Source: a virus. From it: DNA of 22,500 nucleotides. The stretch spans positions 1 through 22,500 of the IMG/VR virus record IMGVR_UViG_3300014962_000531; one strand, 5' to 3'. Made by a program: the position numbers and the translations under genes. This document shows, piece by piece, positions 3,526 to 22,102 of this stretch; the first letter of the stretch is position 1; every line of letters starts with the position of its first letter. The notes under the pieces were generated by a model. The model made no database searches and was not told the DNA's origin. It worked only from the letters and a program-made list of their open reading frames with translations.

Positions 3526-3533
3526 GAGGTGAT
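3526..3533 (+). promoter_or_regulatory. Ribosome binding site that decides the NlpC/P60 start
   Basis: GAGGTGAT is an eight-base complement to the 16S rRNA 3' end. A GTG at 3529 and an ATG at 3532 lie inside or against this sequence and cannot be used efficiently. The in-frame ATG at 3538 is well spaced, so it is the likely start. Confidence 0.75.
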
Positions 3534-3537
3534 GACT

Positions 3538-4074
3538 ATGTTATCTTTTATAATTTCAAATTTATTAATTATTCCCAGTATTGTGATGGGATCGGTATCT
3601 CCTTATACCGCTGATATTGTGCAGGAACCAAAGGAGATTAAATCACAGACCTTATTTTCTTTTGGTTATGTTGAACCAGAAAATCGTGATAGTGTTCAAT
3701 CTGCTATGCAATTAACAGCAAATACATACTATGCTTTTGATGCTGCAACAGATGGAATTGTCGGAACAGCTATGAGTTTGCGTGGAGTTCCATATGTCTT
3801 TGCTGGATCAGCCCCATCTGGATTTGATTGTTCTGGATTTACTGCATATGTTTATGGGAAAAATGGAATCCAGCTTCCACATTCTGCTAGCGCACAGGCT
3901 GGCATGGGGATAGTCGTATCTGAAGATCAGGCAACACCAGGAGATTTAGTTTATATGCCAGGACATATTGGTATTTGGTTAGCTCCTGGTGTAATGATTG
4001 ACTCTGCTGAATATGGAACTGTTGTAGATGTTAGAAAAATTTGGGGCACACCTCAAATTATTCATATTGGCTAA
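3538..4074 (+). CDS. NlpC/P60 peptidoglycan endopeptidase with N-terminal hydrophobic segment (178 aa)
   Basis: The C-terminal half is an NlpC/P60 cysteine peptidase: catalytic Cys98 in GFDCSGF, His143 in PGHIGIW and an acidic residue, Asp155, at the third catalytic position (Glu in mycobacterial RipA). These enzymes cut the D-iso-Glu to diaminopimelate bond in peptide stems. The conserved GxPYVFAG and ATPGDLVYMPGH motifs are present. Residues 1-19 are hydrophobic (MLSFIISNLLIIPSIVMG) but lack the usual positive charges, so this is either a weak Sec signal or a signal-anchor. A spacer of about 50 residues follows. The gene lies 30 bases before the M23 lysin gene, so a lysis role is most likely; a tail-tip cell-wall hydrolase is the alternative. 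Confidence 0.88.
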   Translation: MLSFIISNLLIIPSIVMGSVSPYTADIVQEPKEIKSQTLFSFGYVEPENRDSVQSAMQLTANTYYAFDAATDGIVGTAMSLRGVPYVFAGSAPSGFDCSGFTAYVYGKNGIQLPHSASAQAGMGIVVSEDQATPGDLVYMPGHIGIWLAPGVMIDSAEYGTVVDVRKIWGTPQIIHIG

Positions 4075-4079
4075 TGTGT

Positions 4080-4098
4080 TATAATTTAGTTTGAGGAG
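4080..4098 (+). promoter_or_regulatory. -10 box and ribosome binding site of the M23 lysin gene
   Basis: TATAAT at 4080-4085 is followed by a short leader with GAGGAG at 4093-4098, six bases before the ATG at 4105. Unlike the fibre genes, this promoter would give a transcript with a conventional Shine-Dalgarno. No recognisable -35 box. Confidence 0.5.
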
Positions 4099-4104
4099 AT
4101 TTTT

Positions 4105-5505
4105 ATGAGACATCCTAGCGATTATAGATACGATTCCAGCGACCCATTTGGTGCAACCGCTGGACGACGTTACCCACATACGGGTTCAGATTATTTTGCA
4201 CCTACAGGAAGCCCTGTTTATGCCATTGCTAATGGTGTAATTAACCACATTGGTGAGACATCATACAATGGCAAGACTGTGATGCAATCCATTGACGGCC
4301 ACGGTCTCAACGCGGCATATCTTCATCTTTCAAACAACTCTGTGGTTGGCGATGGCCAGCGTGTAAGCGAAGGTCAGATTATTGGATATTCTGGTAACTC
4401 AGGTTCTAATTCACTTGGTCCACACCTTCATATCACCATTTCTAACGGTGCAGCTTATGATGGTTTGGGTGCAAAGATTGATCCATATGCTTTTATTACA
4501 TCTAATGGTGCAACTCAATCAGGTTCTGGTGGAGGTAATGCATCTGTTAAGGAATATCAGGCACTTCTTAATAACTTTGGTTATGGTCTGGCAGTTGATG
4601 GTGACCACGGTCCTAAGACAAGTGCTGCTGTACGTGATTTTCAATCAAAGCATGGTCTTGTGGTCGATGGTATCGTTGGACCACAAACACTTGGTGCACT
4701 TAAGGCTGGTCCTTCAACAGGTCTAGCAGTTGACGGAGATTTTGGTCCAGCTACAAAGAAAGCATTGCAACGAGCACTTGGTGTTGCAGATGATGGAAAC
4801 TTTGGTCCAATTTCTACCCGTGCACTTCAGGCATTTCTTGGAATTGACCAAGACGGGGATTGGGGTCCAGCGACATCTCGTGCACTCCAGGGGTTTTTGG
4901 GTGTTGCACAAGATGGAGATTTTGGTCCTGCATCAACACGTGCACTACAAGAGCGTTTGAATGCTGGCACCTTTACAAAACCAGCACCAGTGGTGCCCCC
5001 AAAAGAAGAAGTCGCACCAGAGCCAACTCCAGTACCAGAAGTAAAACCAGAAAATCCAGTACAGGAAGAAAAACCAAAACCAGAAGTAACCGAACCACCA
5101 GCAGAAGCGGTGGGCGGAATAAACAACGAAAAACCAAAGGAGGATAACATGCCAGAGCCAGAAAAGACATATGCAGTTACAGCTGAGCAATGGGCAGAGA
5201 TCCAGAATAAAGTTGACAACATGCCAGTCGATGATGAAGATAACCTTCGTCAGTATGATCTTGCATCAGTTAGCTTCTGGAACTATGCTGGTGAGCGTGT
5301 CATTAAGACATTTGCTATGACATTTGCATCAATGCTTAGCACTACAGGTGCAGTTGTTGTTACAGCACCAAATACAGCTAATGTATTTGCAGAAATTGGT
5401 TGGTGGTACATTCTAAGTGTTGCAGGTGTTTCTGCACTTACATCACTTCTAGTGGCACTATCATCGTTCCGTAATATTGTAACTATTAAAAAGAAAAAGA
5501 AGTAA
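4105..5505 (+). CDS. M23 metallopeptidase endolysin with peptidoglycan-binding repeats, fused to a holin (466 aa)
   Basis: Residues 20-130 are an M23 (LytM-like) zinc peptidase: His25 and Asp29 in HTGSD, His74 in YLHL, and the HxH pair His107/His109 in PHLHI. Residues 148-200 are a full PG_binding_1 domain. Residues 209-288 are four exact-period 20-residue repeats of the form DGDFGPATxRALQxxLGVA. A Pro/Glu/Lys-rich linker fills 289-347. The C-terminus resembles r1t-like actinophage holins: FWNYAGERVIKTFAMTFAS, a second hydrophobic helix at about 433-455 and a five-Lys tail. Such holins are normally separate genes. A strong internal start at 5149 (codon 349) suggests a separate holin is made too. 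A rho-independent terminator follows. Confidence 0.88.
   Translation: MRHPSDYRYDSSDPFGATAGRRYPHTGSDYFAPTGSPVYAIANGVINHIGETSYNGKTVMQSIDGHGLNAAYLHLSNNSVVGDGQRVSEGQIIGYSGNSGSNSLGPHLHITISNGAAYDGLGAKIDPYAFITSNGATQSGSGGGNASVKEYQALLNNFGYGLAVDGDHGPKTSAAVRDFQSKHGLVVDGIVGPQTLGALKAGPSTGLAVDGDFGPATKKALQRALGVADDGNFGPISTRALQAFLGIDQDGDWGPATSRALQGFLGVAQDGDFGPASTRALQERLNAGTFTKPAPVVPPKEEVAPEPTPVPEVKPENPVQEEKPKPEVTEPPAEAVGGINNEKPKEDNMPEPEKTYAVTAEQWAEIQNKVDNMPVDDEDNLRQYDLASVSFWNYAGERVIKTFAMTFASMLSTTGAVVVTAPNTANVFAEIGWWYILSVAGVSALTSLLVALSSFRNIVTIKKKKK
4729..4968 (+). repeat. Four tandem 60-base repeats encoding short peptidoglycan-binding units
   Basis: Asp-Gly pairs recur at residues 210, 230, 250 and 270 of the lysin, exactly 20 residues apart, each followed by xxGPxxxxALQ. 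The DNA copies have diverged at third positions, so the array is not a recent slippage product. Each unit corresponds to roughly the second half of a PG_binding_1 domain. Confidence 0.85.
5136..5143 (+). promoter_or_regulatory. Internal ribosome binding site for a separately made holin
   Basis: AAAGGAGG lies inside the lysin gene, five bases before an in-frame ATG at 5149. It is stronger than the gene's own GAGGAG. The encoded residues here (KPKED) sit in a linker where sequence is free to vary. Confidence 0.75.
5149..5505 (+). CDS. Nested in-frame holin, r1t-like (118 aa)
   Basis: Starting at the internal ATG (codon 349 of the lysin) the product would be MPEPEKTYAVTAEQWAEI and onward: an acidic soluble part of about 40 residues, then the conserved NYAGERVIKTFA motif leading into a first hydrophobic helix (about residues 51-71), a second helix (about 85-107) and a basic KKKKK end. 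Size, two-helix layout and charged tail are those of phage holins, which open the membrane to release or activate lysins. The ribosome binding site at 5136-5143 supports independent translation. That this product is made is inference; the holin resemblance itself is well supported. Confidence 0.7.
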   Translation: MPEPEKTYAVTAEQWAEIQNKVDNMPVDDEDNLRQYDLASVSFWNYAGERVIKTFAMTFASMLSTTGAVVVTAPNTANVFAEIGWWYILSVAGVSALTSLLVALSSFRNIVTIKKKKK

Positions 5506-5518
5506 GTAGAGGCATTTT

Positions 5519-5548
5519 AATACCCCCAGTTACGGCTGGGGGTATTTT
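5519..5548 (+). terminator. Rho-independent terminator after the lysis genes
   Basis: AATACCCCCAG pairs with CTGGGGGTATT across the six-base loop TTACGG, giving an 11 bp stem with five G-C pairs in a row, followed by TT (with the stem end, TTTT). The upstream side carries TTTTAA, so it may also act on the other strand. It separates the lysis genes from the fibre region. Confidence 0.9.
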
Positions 5549-5571
5549 GCTATATCTACCAAAATAAACAT

Positions 5572-5592
5572 TATGATATCATTAATTAGGAG
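5572..5592 (+). promoter_or_regulatory. Possible promoter and ribosome binding site for the long fibre gene
   Basis: Directly after the terminator a new promoter is expected. TATGAT at 5572-5577 is a candidate -10, with a poor TTGCTA -35 at 5547-5552 (19-base spacing). AGGAG at 5588-5592 lies four bases before the ATG at 5597 and chooses that start over the ATG at 5573, which has no ribosome binding site. Confidence 0.45.
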
Positions 5593-5596
5593 ACTT

Positions 5597-8500
5597 ATGC
5601 TTACAAGAATGCTGCAACGCCGTGGTACAACGGCACAATGGGAAGACGTAAAAAGTACCCTAATTCTTTCTTCTGGTGAAATTGGTATCATTTTTGATGA
5701 CCCAGATTTAGGAAATAATGGTAAGTTTAAGGTTGGAGACGGTGTTACCGTCTGGGAAGACCTTAGTTTTTATCTTAAAGATGATGATAATGCAGATATT
5801 TATGCAAAACTTATTGCAACACAAACTTTTACTGGAACACAGGTTTTAACACCAGCAAATGCTGTATCTGTTCCACTGGTAATTTCTGGTGCTGGATCGC
5901 AGTCAGCAAATTTGCAGGTATGGAGAAATAGCTCAGAAGTAGTAAAAGCATCAGTTAGTTATGATGGATTGATTACTGGTAATGGTGGTGTTTTTAATGC
6001 TAACGTAAGTCTTGCTGGAAATAAAGTTACCAATCTTGGAGCACCAACATCAGATCAAGATGCAGCAAATAAGCTATATGTAGATGATGCAATTGCGGGT
6101 CTTGCATGGAAGGCACCAGTTAATCTTATTTCAGCATCAGGTCTTAACACATACATCAATGTTCCACTTACTGGTTCTGGTGGAACAATAGTTCTTGACG
6201 GACATACTGCTCTTACAGATACCCATAATGGTTATAGGCTTTTACTTCTTGCACAAACTACTACTTCTGACAATGGTATTTATGTATATAATCAAACAGG
6301 CGGAACATATACATTAACTCGTGCAACAGACTCAGACTCTTATACAGAACTTAAAGGAGCATCTGTATTTGTTGAAGAAGGAACAAATTATGGAACATCT
6401 TCCTGGGTACAAACAAATCATTACCTAACTTCATTTTCTGGACAAAACTGGGTACAGTTTAATGGTGCATCTCAAATCACTGCGGGTACTGGTTTAACAA
6501 AAACGGGTAATACTGTAAATGCTATTGGCACAACTGATCGTATTACAGCAAATGCAGATTCAATTGATATTGCTTCTACTTATGTTGGACAGACTTCTAT
6601 TACTACCCTCGGAACTGTGGCAACTGGTACATGGAATGCAGATACAATTTCGGTGGGTAAGGGTGGAACAAACATTACATCATACACTACTGGTGATCTT
6701 TTATATGCTAGTGGAACAACACAACTTTCTAAACTTACTGCTGGTACAGCAAACTATACATTGCTTTCTGGTGGTGCAGGTACAGCACCATCATGGGGTC
6801 AAGTTGTAACAGCATCACTTGCAAATGCATCAAACACAACAACTGGTGTCACATATGCAAAGATGCAATATGTTTCGGCACAGTACAAAGTACTTGGTAG
6901 AATTTCCAGCGGTAGCGGTGTAGTTGAAGAATTATCAGCAGACAACCTTATTACAATGCTTAATACTGGTACATCAACTATTAGTGCCAACAGACTAACA
7001 TCATCTTCTGGAAGCAACTATGGAACATCAACAGATGCCGCACGTAAAGACCACACCCACACAATTGATGATCTTTCTGATGTAATTATTACTGGAACAC
7101 CTGCATCTAGACAGGTTATTAAATACAATGGAACAAACTGGGTAAACGAGCTACCATCTGGTGGTATTTCAATTGGAGCAACCTCTCCATCAAGTCCTGC
7201 TGCAGGTGATGCATGGTTTGACTCAACTGATGGTTCACTATATGTTTACTATGATGATTCCACAAACCGTCCATCTGGAACTAACTTAATTACAAACCCC
7301 AGTTTTGAAACTAACGCTACAAGCTGGTCTGGCACAAATGCCACGGTAGCACAAAGCTCAGCACAATACTATATTGGTACCAAATCAATGCTAGTAACAC
7401 CATCAACTACAACTGGTAAAGCATCATTTACTGCTACAACAGTAAATGGAACTACATATAGGTTCTCGGCATATGTTTTTTCTACAATTAATAAAAATCT
7501 TCGTGTAAGCATTACATCACCAGCCACTAATGGAACAACTACAGCCGTTACATATAACACGTGGACACGTCTTGATGTATCGTTTGTAGCTAACGGAACA
7601 TCAACTACAGTAAATATTGAAAGCATTGACTCTACAGATGCATTTTATGTTGATGCAGTAATGCTTGAAGCTTCGGCCACTCTCAATGATTATTTTGATG
7701 GTTCATCACTTAATTCAAACTGGGTTGGAACAGCACATGCTTCAACATCATCAACATCTGGCGGACAAACAAAACAATGGGTTCAGGTACGTGCTAACTC
7801 AGCACTTGAAGCCACTATCCTTACCCGTATGTCGGCGGTAGAGTCAAGAGCAACTAACCTAGAAGCAGCTAACCCAGTAGTTGTTACATCACAAGCTGCA
7901 CGTTCTGCTATATTCCCATCACCAGTACAAGGTAATACAGTATTCCGATCTGACCTAGGCTACATGGAACGTTACTACGCAGCATATGATGCTGTAACCA
8001 ATCCATCAGGAACTACTGGTACTGTAGGGTGGTATGAGTATCGTGGTGGAGCACCACTGAGTAGTAATTATATTATCAATGGTGCCTTCGATAACTGGCA
8101 ACGTGGAACTACCTCAACACAAGTAGATGCATATGGATCTGCAGATAGATGGGTATTCAAAGGCGTTCTTGCAAGACAAACTTTTACACCAGGAACATCG
8201 CCATCTGGGTCATCAACATATTATGCAAATTTGTCATGGTCATCAACATATCAATACATGAGTCAAAGAGTTGAGGATATTTCTCTTATGGCTGGGAAAA
8301 CGGTTACATTTAGTTTTTACGCAAAGTCTTCTACCACTACGACTGTATATCCGAGAATTGTAAGAAATTATGGTACTGGTGGTTCTACTCAAGAAGAATT
8401 AGTTTTTGCAACCACTCCAATTACAATTTCATCTTCATGGAATAGATATTTTTATACATATACCATTCCATCACTATCTGGAAAAACTTTGGGTTCAAAA

Positions 8501-8992
8501 GAAACTACATTTATGGAGTTTGCTTTGTATGGAACAAAAGCTTCTGCAACAACAGCTAATTTTGATATTGCAGATGTTCAAATTGAAGAAGGTCCAGTAG
8601 CAACACCATTCCGTCGTAACCAGCCAAACATTCAGGCTGAACTTGCTGCATGTCAGCGGTACTACTGGCGAATTAAATCAGATGGAACAAATGCAAATAC
8701 TCCAATACCATCGGGCGGCGCTGGAATAGCAACAACAAGGGCATACATAACAGTAACGCATCCAGTTGCCATGCGTATCCCACCAACATCTTTAGAGCTT
8801 TCTGGAATGAATGTTAATACACCAGGCATTGAGGGTTTTGCAATAACATCAGCAGCCATTGCTACCAATGTTTCAAATAATTTAATTACAATGGTTGATT
8901 GTTATGTAGCAAGTGGCCTTACCTTTAGAAATGTTTATAGACTTGAAACTGGTTCAGTATCTGGCTATATCGGTTTTAGTGCGGAGTTATAA
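5597..8992 (+). CDS. Long tail fibre protein (1131 aa) with Mtd-type N-terminus and carbohydrate-binding-like domains
   Basis: Residues 1-60 match the N-terminal domain of Mtd-like and hyaluronidase-like phage fibres: LQRRGTTAQWEDV, then LSSGEIGI and KFKVGDGVTVWEDL. Residues about 90-125 carry the SQSANLQVWRNSS module shared with two genes downstream. About 150-178 is the common fibre repeat NKVTNLGAPTSDQDAANKLY. KDHTHTIDDL and the GDAWFDSTDG module follow. Two beta-sandwich domains resembling CBM4/9 start near residues 562 (NLITNPSFETNATSW) and 824 (YIINGAFDNWQRG). The C-terminal 150 residues begin QAELAACQRYYW, typical of fibre tips. Probably a trimeric fibre; glycan binding is inferred. 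It is the largest adhesin in this region and ends in two consecutive TAA stops. Confidence 0.88.
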   Translation: MLTRMLQRRGTTAQWEDVKSTLILSSGEIGIIFDDPDLGNNGKFKVGDGVTVWEDLSFYLKDDDNADIYAKLIATQTFTGTQVLTPANAVSVPLVISGAGSQSANLQVWRNSSEVVKASVSYDGLITGNGGVFNANVSLAGNKVTNLGAPTSDQDAANKLYVDDAIAGLAWKAPVNLISASGLNTYINVPLTGSGGTIVLDGHTALTDTHNGYRLLLLAQTTTSDNGIYVYNQTGGTYTLTRATDSDSYTELKGASVFVEEGTNYGTSSWVQTNHYLTSFSGQNWVQFNGASQITAGTGLTKTGNTVNAIGTTDRITANADSIDIASTYVGQTSITTLGTVATGTWNADTISVGKGGTNITSYTTGDLLYASGTTQLSKLTAGTANYTLLSGGAGTAPSWGQVVTASLANASNTTTGVTYAKMQYVSAQYKVLGRISSGSGVVEELSADNLITMLNTGTSTISANRLTSSSGSNYGTSTDAARKDHTHTIDDLSDVIITGTPASRQVIKYNGTNWVNELPSGGISIGATSPSSPAAGDAWFDSTDGSLYVYYDDSTNRPSGTNLITNPSFETNATSWSGTNATVAQSSAQYYIGTKSMLVTPSTTTGKASFTATTVNGTTYRFSAYVFSTINKNLRVSITSPATNGTTTAVTYNTWTRLDVSFVANGTSTTVNIESIDSTDAFYVDAVMLEASATLNDYFDGSSLNSNWVGTAHASTSSTSGGQTKQWVQVRANSALEATILTRMSAVESRATNLEAANPVVVTSQAARSAIFPSPVQGNTVFRSDLGYMERYYAAYDAVTNPSGTTGTVGWYEYRGGAPLSSNYIINGAFDNWQRGTTSTQVDAYGSADRWVFKGVLARQTFTPGTSPSGSSTYYANLSWSSTYQYMSQRVEDISLMAGKTVTFSFYAKSSTTTTVYPRIVRNYGTGGSTQEELVFATTPITISSSWNRYFYTYTIPSLSGKTLGSKETTFMEFALYGTKASATTANFDIADVQIEEGPVATPFRRNQPNIQAELAACQRYYWRIKSDGTNANTPIPSGGAGIATTRAYITVTHPVAMRIPPTSLELSGMNVNTPGIEGFAITSAAIATNVSNNLITMVDCYVASGLTFRNVYRLETGSVSGYIGFSAEL

Positions 8993-20782: not shown

Positions 20783-22102
20783 ATGACTATTCAAAAAGCT
20801 CATTGGGCAACCGAAGGTGATAACGTTCGCCTATCTATGCCATTCAGTAAAGTTGATCAAGAGAGACGTATTGTCTCTGGTTTTGCTACCCTTGACAACA
20901 TTGACAAGCAGGGTGACATTGTTACCACCGAGGCTTCAGTTTCTGCATTTACAAAATTCCGTGGAAACATTCGTGAAATGCACCAACCTTCAGCGGTAGG
21001 TAAAATGATCAGCTTCAAAGAAGATAAATACTTTGACCCAGAAACAAAGAAATTTTACACTGGTGTATATGTTTCTGCATATGTTTCAAAGGGTGCTCAA
21101 GACTGCTGGGAAAAAGTACTTGATGGTACATACACAGGTTTTTCAATTGGTGGACGTATGAATAAGTGGGACGATGCTTATGATGAAAAAGCAGACTGTT
21201 CAGTTCGTGTTATTAAAGACTACGATCTAGTTGAGCTTTCACTTGTAGACAACCCAGCCAACCAATTTGCTAACGTTCTTTCTATCGAAAAGGTAGATGG
21301 CGTTGATGTTCTTAAAGGGCTTGATTCAAATACTATTCTAGAAAATGTTTTCTGGGATAAAGAATCAGGCCTTGTTCTAGTTTCAGAAAATGAAGTTGAA
21401 CTCAGCCCTACAACTGGTGTTGCTATGCAAAACATCGGGTTTGTTGAGAAAACAGATTCAGAGAAAGTAGACATGATAAAGTTCTTAGTTGACAGTGCCA
21501 AGGGTACAGAAACAACTGGGATTAACAAGGAGGTAAGTACTATGACAGAAAATGCAACTGAAGTTGTAGAAGAAGTTGAAGTCGCTCCAGAGGCAGATGC
21601 CGAAGTTGAAACTACTGAGGAAGAGACAGAAGCCGTTGAGGAAGTAACAGAGGAAGTTGCTGACGAGGCTGAGGTTGACAAGGTAGATGAAATCGTTGCA
21701 AAGGCTAAGACCACTGACAGCCCTGAAGAAGAGGCTACAGAAGAGGTTGACAACCTTGAGGAAGAAGCTAACGAGGACATGAAAACTAAGAAGTCAGACG
21801 AGCTTTCTGCTATTGCAGATCTCAGCGACTCTATTACTGCTGCCCTTGGCGACATTGCTTCAACAGTAAAGGCACTCGCTGCCGAAGTTGATGCACTTAA
21901 GAAGTCAAACGAACTCACAAATGCAAAAATTGCAGATGCTGAGAAGGACTTCGAAGATCTTGGAAAGTCACTAACTGCTCTTGAGGCAGATACAGCTTTC
22001 CGTAAGTCTGGCGATCTGGGCGAGATCGTACAGGAACCAGCAATGGTTGAAAAATCAGTATGGGGCGGACGTTTCCTCACAACATCCGACCTACTAAAAT
22101 AG
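20783..22102 (+). CDS. Prohead protease (S78/XkdF-like) fused to a scaffold domain (439 aa)
   Basis: Residues 1-170 are a prohead serine protease of the herpesvirus-assemblin-like fold: ATLDNIDKQGDIV, catalytic His67 in MHQPSAVGK, Ser121 in GFSIGGR, and the conserved YDLVELSLVDNPAN. It cleaves scaffold and other head proteins once the prohead has formed. After a link (170-250) comes a strongly acidic tract (about 258-335, many Glu and Asp), a coiled coil (about 344-405, ASTVKALAAEVDALKKSNEL) and a C-terminal tail (SVWGGRFLTTSDLLK), as in scaffolds. A strong internal ribosome binding site and in-frame ATG at 21542 would make the scaffold alone, as in lambda C/Nu3. The gene directly precedes the capsid gene. 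Confidence 0.92.
   Translation: MTIQKAHWATEGDNVRLSMPFSKVDQERRIVSGFATLDNIDKQGDIVTTEASVSAFTKFRGNIREMHQPSAVGKMISFKEDKYFDPETKKFYTGVYVSAYVSKGAQDCWEKVLDGTYTGFSIGGRMNKWDDAYDEKADCSVRVIKDYDLVELSLVDNPANQFANVLSIEKVDGVDVLKGLDSNTILENVFWDKESGLVLVSENEVELSPTTGVAMQNIGFVEKTDSEKVDMIKFLVDSAKGTETTGINKEVSTMTENATEVVEEVEVAPEADAEVETTEEETEAVEEVTEEVADEAEVDKVDEIVAKAKTTDSPEEEATEEVDNLEEEANEDMKTKKSDELSAIADLSDSITAALGDIASTVKALAAEVDALKKSNELTNAKIADAEKDFEDLGKSLTALEADTAFRKSGDLGEIVQEPAMVEKSVWGGRFLTTSDLLK
21527..21534 (+). promoter_or_regulatory. Internal ribosome binding site for a separately made scaffold
   Basis: AAGGAGGT lies in the protease-scaffold gene. GGAGG ends eight bases before the in-frame ATG at 21542. This is one of the best Shine-Dalgarno sequences in the window, and it lies exactly at the junction between protease and acidic scaffold domains. 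Confidence 0.8.
21542..22102 (+). CDS. Nested in-frame scaffold protein (186 aa)
   Basis: Starting at codon 254 of the protease gene (MTENATEVVEEVEVAPEADA), the product is the acidic tract, the coiled coil and the C-terminal tail without the protease. Free scaffold in excess of the protease fusion guides major capsid proteins into a prohead shell and is then digested. Lambda Nu3, nested in gene C, is the known precedent. The ribosome binding site at 21527-21534 and the coincidence of start and domain boundary support it; the product itself is inferred. Confidence 0.75.
   Translation: MTENATEVVEEVEVAPEADAEVETTEEETEAVEEVTEEVADEAEVDKVDEIVAKAKTTDSPEEEATEEVDNLEEEANEDMKTKKSDELSAIADLSDSITAALGDIASTVKALAAEVDALKKSNELTNAKIADAEKDFEDLGKSLTALEADTAFRKSGDLGEIVQEPAMVEKSVWGGRFLTTSDLLK

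Follow-up and report, generated by a model that had tools for sequence, protein, structure and literature searches.

A viral lysis gene that fuses an M23 lysin to an r1t-type holin and carries a candidate internal start for the holin alone

Holins are viewed as timers that merely release a separate, soluble lysin, and a gene in the 22.5-kb virus record analyzed here (the whole stretch is herein referred to as the window) raises the question of whether a timer and its enzyme can be both joined and separately produced from one reading frame. Between its ATG and its TAA this frame runs for 466 codons (positions 4105–5505) with no stop, as had been claimed in the initial annotation of the window, and profile matches place in it, in order, an M23 peptidase, peptidoglycan-binding repeats, a Pro/Glu linker and a two-helix r1t-type holin (table 1). 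The combination of a catalytic domain with a wall-binding domain (M23 and PG_binding_1/3) is that of the modular endolysins of Gram-positive systems, but the protein is not of the soluble kind that stops after the wall-binding domain; the frame runs on into the linker and the holin. We hypothesize, with a probability of roughly 0.55, that this is a dual-start lysis gene that would yield a membrane-tethered lysin–holin and a free holin, which would co-assemble, the ratio of the two products tuning the timing of lysis.

Judging by its sequence, the gene seems to form a unit by itself, with its own promoter and terminator, and the hairpin that we regard as the likely terminator is absent from the list that a consensus terminator scan returned for the plus strand. 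Directly upstream (3529–4074) lies a gene for an NlpC/P60 peptidase whose N-terminus includes a hydrophobic segment; this is a second wall enzyme, which may be secreted or virion-borne.

Table 1. Features of the lysin–holin gene and its flanks, in window coordinates
Feature	Position	Strand	Basis or remark
TATAAT box, candidate −10 of the gene's own promoter (probable)	4080–4085	+	Sequence inference; scan gave no −35 partner
GAGGAG, Shine–Dalgarno for the full-length lysin–holin	4093–4098	+	6 nt 5' of ATG 4105
CDS, 466-aa lysin–holin fusion	4105–5505	+	Uninterrupted frame; 78%-identical relative with the same architecture
Peptidase M23 catalytic domain, residues 24–115	4174–4449	+	PF01551, E 2e-21
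Peptidoglycan-binding repeats (PG_binding_1/3), residues 146–288	4540–4968	+	PF01471, E 3e-26; PF09374
Pro/Glu/Lys-rich linker, residues 291–348, fast evolving, indels in-frame only	4975–5148	+	Translation; comparison with L001
GINN motif	5116–5127	+	Sole linker stretch common to all three r1t-type fusions (window, L001, L015)
AAAGGAGG, internal Shine–Dalgarno	5136–5143	+	Strongest of the window, together with that at 21527
Nested in-frame CDS, candidate free holin, 118 aa, ATG	5149–5505	+	Sequence; aligned start is GTG in L001 (118 aa) and ATG in L015 (119 aa)
r1t-type two-helix holin domain, residues 390–455	5272–5469	+	PF16945, phrog_443; predicted helical hairpin
12-bp GC-rich hairpin followed by a T-run, likely terminator	5519–5546	+	Fold −27.2 kcal/mol for 5500–5560, z −4.9

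The proposal that the C-terminal part (residues 349–466) is an r1t-like holin held when this 118-aa piece was compared with profiles: it matches holin profiles only, namely PF16945 (E 3e-6; 27.5 bits, above the curated cut-off of 26.9) and phrog_443 (E 8e-10). AlphaFold2 (12 sequences) folds the piece with moderate confidence (pLDDT 64) into a helical hairpin of helices 41–72 and 74–111; the model of the full-length fusion is poor (pLDDT 43), and the first transmembrane helix (TM1) of the r1t-type domain is weakly hydrophobic. Holins of this type are small free-standing proteins with two transmembrane helices; the window's domain is fused, and its free form would arise only by use of the internal start. 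LysF1a of the mycobacteriophages Girr and NormanBulbieJr is of the same family and has two transmembrane domains (TMDs), the number predicted for the window protein; it is a free-standing gene product of 77–80 aa with a predicted N-in/C-in topology (PMC13056207); by profile match, the NormanBulbieJr protein is a phrog_443 member (E 4e-28). By analogy with LysF1a, and because basic residues flank both helices of the window protein, its holin part is predicted to be N-in/C-in, with the fused lysin facing the cytoplasm. LysF1a differs in being unfused, in having no dual start and in acting with LysF1b (PMC13056207); since lysis required this partner, an r1t-type protein may be insufficient as a holin by itself. 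A second r1t holin was looked for in the three records and not found; as the records are fragments, a further holin may be encoded outside them.

At the junction of linker and holin, AAAGGAGG is followed after a 5-nt gap by ATG 5149–5151, which is codon 349 and in frame because (5149 − 4105)/3 = 348; an internal ribosome-binding site and start had been proposed at exactly this junction, and both are there. The gene thereby shows what defines endolysin genes with internal starts, an in-frame start with its own Shine–Dalgarno (SD) and a common stop. The internal SD outranks that of the gene itself, and at most other genes of the window the SD is weaker or absent. The pattern AAGGAGG-N3-9-ATG occurs twice in the 22.5 kb, both strands together, against 0.32 expected, and an 8-base SD match precedes 2 of the 167 in-frame internal start codons of the window's genes (5149 and 21542), both of which fall on domain boundaries. 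The background for such an SD with an in-frame internal start is 0.14 per 1000 codons, which comes to about 0.014 over the whole junction, and RNA folding leaves the internal SD and AUG unpaired except for one weak 2-bp stem.

The same site can be read with the fusion as the sole product, its r1t module both holding the chain in the membrane and forming the hole, and the internal SD and start being either a chance product of Lys–Glu codons or a relic of a formerly separate holin gene. Lys–Glu codons do readily yield SD-like AAGGAG: the P-K-E-D-N-M codons give an SD this strong in 15% of synonymous shuffles of the window protein (36–50% for two other fusions, L015 and L040), which makes the window site on its own only suggestive, and codon conservation around the SD (p 0.06) is likewise suggestive and below significance. 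That this SD is the strongest present and exceeds the gene's own argues against the sole-product reading, which we consider unlikely; what the relatives show weighs more heavily than the internal site alone.

Four further fusions bear on the question. In L001 (IMG/VR 3300014962_000012; 78% identity) the same fusion is kept in frame throughout, and at the aligned place AAAGGA-7nt-GTG would open a 118-aa product. Between it and the window, synonymous sites are saturated in the lysin and the holin core, dN is 0.06–0.12 in the lysin, 0.09 in the holin core and 0.33–0.45 in the linker and N-terminal holin segment, and every linker gap is of whole codons. L015 (3300022305_000884) carries a holin 63% identical to that of the window, joined to an unrelated Amidase_2/CW_7 lysin (Pfam E 2e-19 and 5e-13) by an Ala/Lys/Glu linker unlike the window's; its junction, AAGGA-12nt-ATG, has a long spacing and leads into 119 aa. 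Used as a query for further fusions, the L015 lysin returned only L015 itself. The holins of L001 and L015 fall under the PF16945 cut-off, yet match phrog_443. Within this r1t clade the aligned shared segment opens just 3' of the internal start, as is expected if the 118–119-aa protein is a unit, and the one exception is the GINN motif just before it, which is kept 5' of the internal start in the window, L001 and L015 despite their differing linkers. L040 (3300042549_003538) and L002 (3300032225_000633) form an independent pair, in which M23 lysins run through Lys/Pro-rich linkers into another 2-TM module; the two copies of this module are 75% identical to each other, are unrelated to the r1t holin and have no Pfam match, that of L002 also having no PHROG match. 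The L040 junction is AGGAG-9nt-ATG, leading into 91 aa, and L002 has an aligned GTG.

These relatives dispose of the idea that two normal genes were joined by a sequencing or assembly error, a missed stop or indel being one of the refutations that the initial annotation had named. We reject it as scarcely credible: an out-of-frame TAA at 5120–5122 is present and is all that speaks for it, but the same fusion is found in L001 and L015 with the frame preserved, parallel fusions occur in L002 and L040, which come from other contigs, and indels within the linker spare the frame. The close relatives are fused, which also answers the concern that related phages might always keep two separate genes.

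A separate holin might also arise after translation, by a host protease that cuts the full-length protein in the linker, for instance near GINN, and so releases equal amounts of lysin and holin. The linker is disordered and fast changing, and a single conserved GINN among three otherwise different linkers would fit a cleavage site; but no known protease site was found, the motif could reflect conservation at the DNA level (GGAATAAAYAAC), and the SD and start would then be superfluous, such that we regard cleavage as quite improbable.

A start codon stands at the aligned position in all five fusions and an SD in four of the five, which argues against the fusion as sole product; L002, the one without an SD, favors it. 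With a background of 2.0 per 1000 codons for in-frame starts with SD ≥5, such a start in 4/5 junctions has a chance of about 0.005 (0.008 for all three lineages). These statistics, from few sequences, lend moderate support to the internal start, and products of about 466 and 118 residues would be the best explanation of the two starts.

At several of the loci (L015:2392–2649, L002:4739–4993, L012:4714–4992 and L040:2581–2904) the lysin has as its neighbor a gene for a small coiled-coil protein with a single TM helix at the C-terminus, those of L002 and L012 being hemolysin XhlA-like by weak PHROG matches; none was seen next to the lysin of the window.

Split and free-standing forms exist as well. 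L012 has a split cassette, in which the M23 lysin, the coiled-coil protein with one TM helix and a 2-TM holin each have their own gene, and a Leifsonia locus (L042) pairs an M23 lysin of 185 aa with a separate small TM gene. The distant r1t relatives (L016–L028) are free-standing genes, mostly of 61–75 aa, with mostly 32–38% identity and higher values over short matches. Because distant r1t holins are free-standing and split cassettes exist, the fusion is a derived state, built from recombined modules. A first scan of bacterial genomes found no fusions. Among 395 genomes of the class to which a Leifsonia genome belongs, 15 encode r1t holins, some within long open frames; the loci read from this sample gave an outcome in all cases but L047, L052 and L053: the r1t genes of L045, L046, L048 and L050 are short, and no upstream lysin sequence was recognizable by eye in L044, L049 and L051. 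Among annotated phages the holin piece had no match at E ≤ 1, and no record covers 80% of the fusion.

Holin and endolysin are normally separate genes, as the initial annotation had stated, but a natural fusion of opposite order has been published, from Clostridium sporogenes and of the TpeE/BhlA family (PMC9527704). As in the window, holin and endolysin are there translationally joined in one natural gene, with no free endolysin expected; that fusion, proposed to work without one (PMC9527704), lends some plausibility to a window gene with a single product. The C. sporogenes holin is N-terminal and belongs to another family, with one TM helix and an amphipathic helix, and the available text of that report describes no nested free-holin start (PMC9527704); the window shows the reverse domain order and a different holin family. 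For a Gordonia phage, a holin–capsid fusion has been put forward (PMC9671378). Endolysin genes often carry in-frame internal starts, such as those of Ms6 lysA and CTP1L, which resemble the window's in having a second in-frame start, its own SD and a common stop; their short product is the wall-binding part, or a second catalytic domain with the binding part, where that of the window would be a holin (PMC9430671). In the dual-start holins lambda S107/S105 and phage 21 S71/S68, two N-termini from one gene set lysis time by their ratio, but the two forms differ by 2–3 residues and the extension in the window is a whole 348-residue lysin (PMC6116005). Measured against the lambda S type, the window has two starts that are visible in sequence only. 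Loessner et al. are said to have described in 1999 a holin-like gene, hol187, inside the ply187 endolysin gene of S. aureus phage 187; it reportedly lies out of frame and hence gives no fusion protein, unlike the window gene. Each element of the window gene has a precedent (a reverse-order fusion, in-frame internal starts, dual-start holins, hol187), and among the open-access papers searched we found none that reports their combination, in which a lysin at the N-terminus is joined to a holin at the C-terminus and a start for the holin alone is nested in the same frame.

How the two products would act together can be outlined by analogy. Translation from ATG 4105 would give a lysin with an r1t-type holin as its C-terminus, and translation from ATG 5149 on the same mRNA the holin alone, the latter probably in excess because the internal SD is stronger. 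The fused lysin would hang on the cytoplasmic face of the membrane by the linker of ~58 residues and a short helical segment, and free holin and fusion would probably gather in shared assemblies in the membrane. By the time such an assembly opens, the lysin tethered to it would already be at the lesion, and the linker, together with the 40-residue N-terminal holin segment, would let it reach the wall, with the ratio of fusion to free holin tuning the time of opening. That the fusion acts as an anchored lysin or as a dominant modulator that fixes the timing of lysis is plausible, and LysF1a, whose lysis competence and timing shift when its N-terminal cytoplasmic part, TMD1 or C-terminus is changed, gives this indirect support (PMC13056207). 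The fusion may additionally delay triggering, an effect that N-terminal extensions have in dual-start holins (PMC6116005), and tethered delivery and slowed triggering are compatible roles that sequence does not separate.

Taken further, the fusion could be mainly antiholin-like, its bulky cytoplasmic lysin impeding the movement or packing of TMD1 until free holin from 5149 overcomes the block, in the manner of S107/S105 and S21 71/68. The antiholins of lambda and phage 21 arise by N-terminal extension (PMC6116005, PMC13056207), and LysF1a mutants altered in the N-terminal cytoplasmic part, TMD1 or the start of the C-terminal part are lysis competent and lyse prematurely (PMC13056207). Were its role purely inhibitory, however, the sole M23 lysin found in this fragment would double as the brake. 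We hold this to be less probable than co-assembly of a tethered lysin with free holin, with which it is compatible and from which it is hard to tell apart by sequence.

Other starts in the window deserve mention. A second perfect internal SD, AAGGAGGT at 21527 with an in-frame ATG at 21542, lies inside the head maturation protease gene (20783–22102; phrog_9427, E 1e-114). Initiation there would give a separate C-terminal protein of 186 aa (to 22102), acidic and scaffold-like, an arrangement that recalls the nested protease and scaffold genes C and Nu3 of lambda. The large tail-fibre-like gene listed at 5573–8992 probably starts at ATG 5597, which is preceded by TTAGGAGACTT, rather than at 5573. 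The pattern TATAAT/TATACT-TNAAWT-ATG stands just 5' of the gene starts at 120, 9938, 10776, 12806 and 13657, mostly without an SD; it has 11 matches (at most 2 mismatches) against 2.85 expected, some of them away from gene starts. A −10-like box this close to the ATG, mostly with no SD, recalls leaderless transcripts.

That the design recurs in environmental phages, built from differing lysins and holins, suggests selection and not accident. More broadly, and slightly short of even odds in our estimate, it would represent a recurrent one-gene lysis architecture that draws on two or more kinds of lysin and on two holin-like modules unrelated to each other; the lysin would extend the holin at its N-terminus on the cytoplasmic side, the internal start would determine the proportion of tethered lysin to free holin, and enzyme delivery and hole formation would become one event. 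If the dual-start reading is true, an enzyme tied to the timer would act beside a free timer, and the lysin would be delivered locally, in stoichiometric coupling with the opening of the hole. In such a single-gene system one ribosome-binding site would alter the ratio of the two products, and the dependence of lysis time on holin composition would therefore be directly testable.
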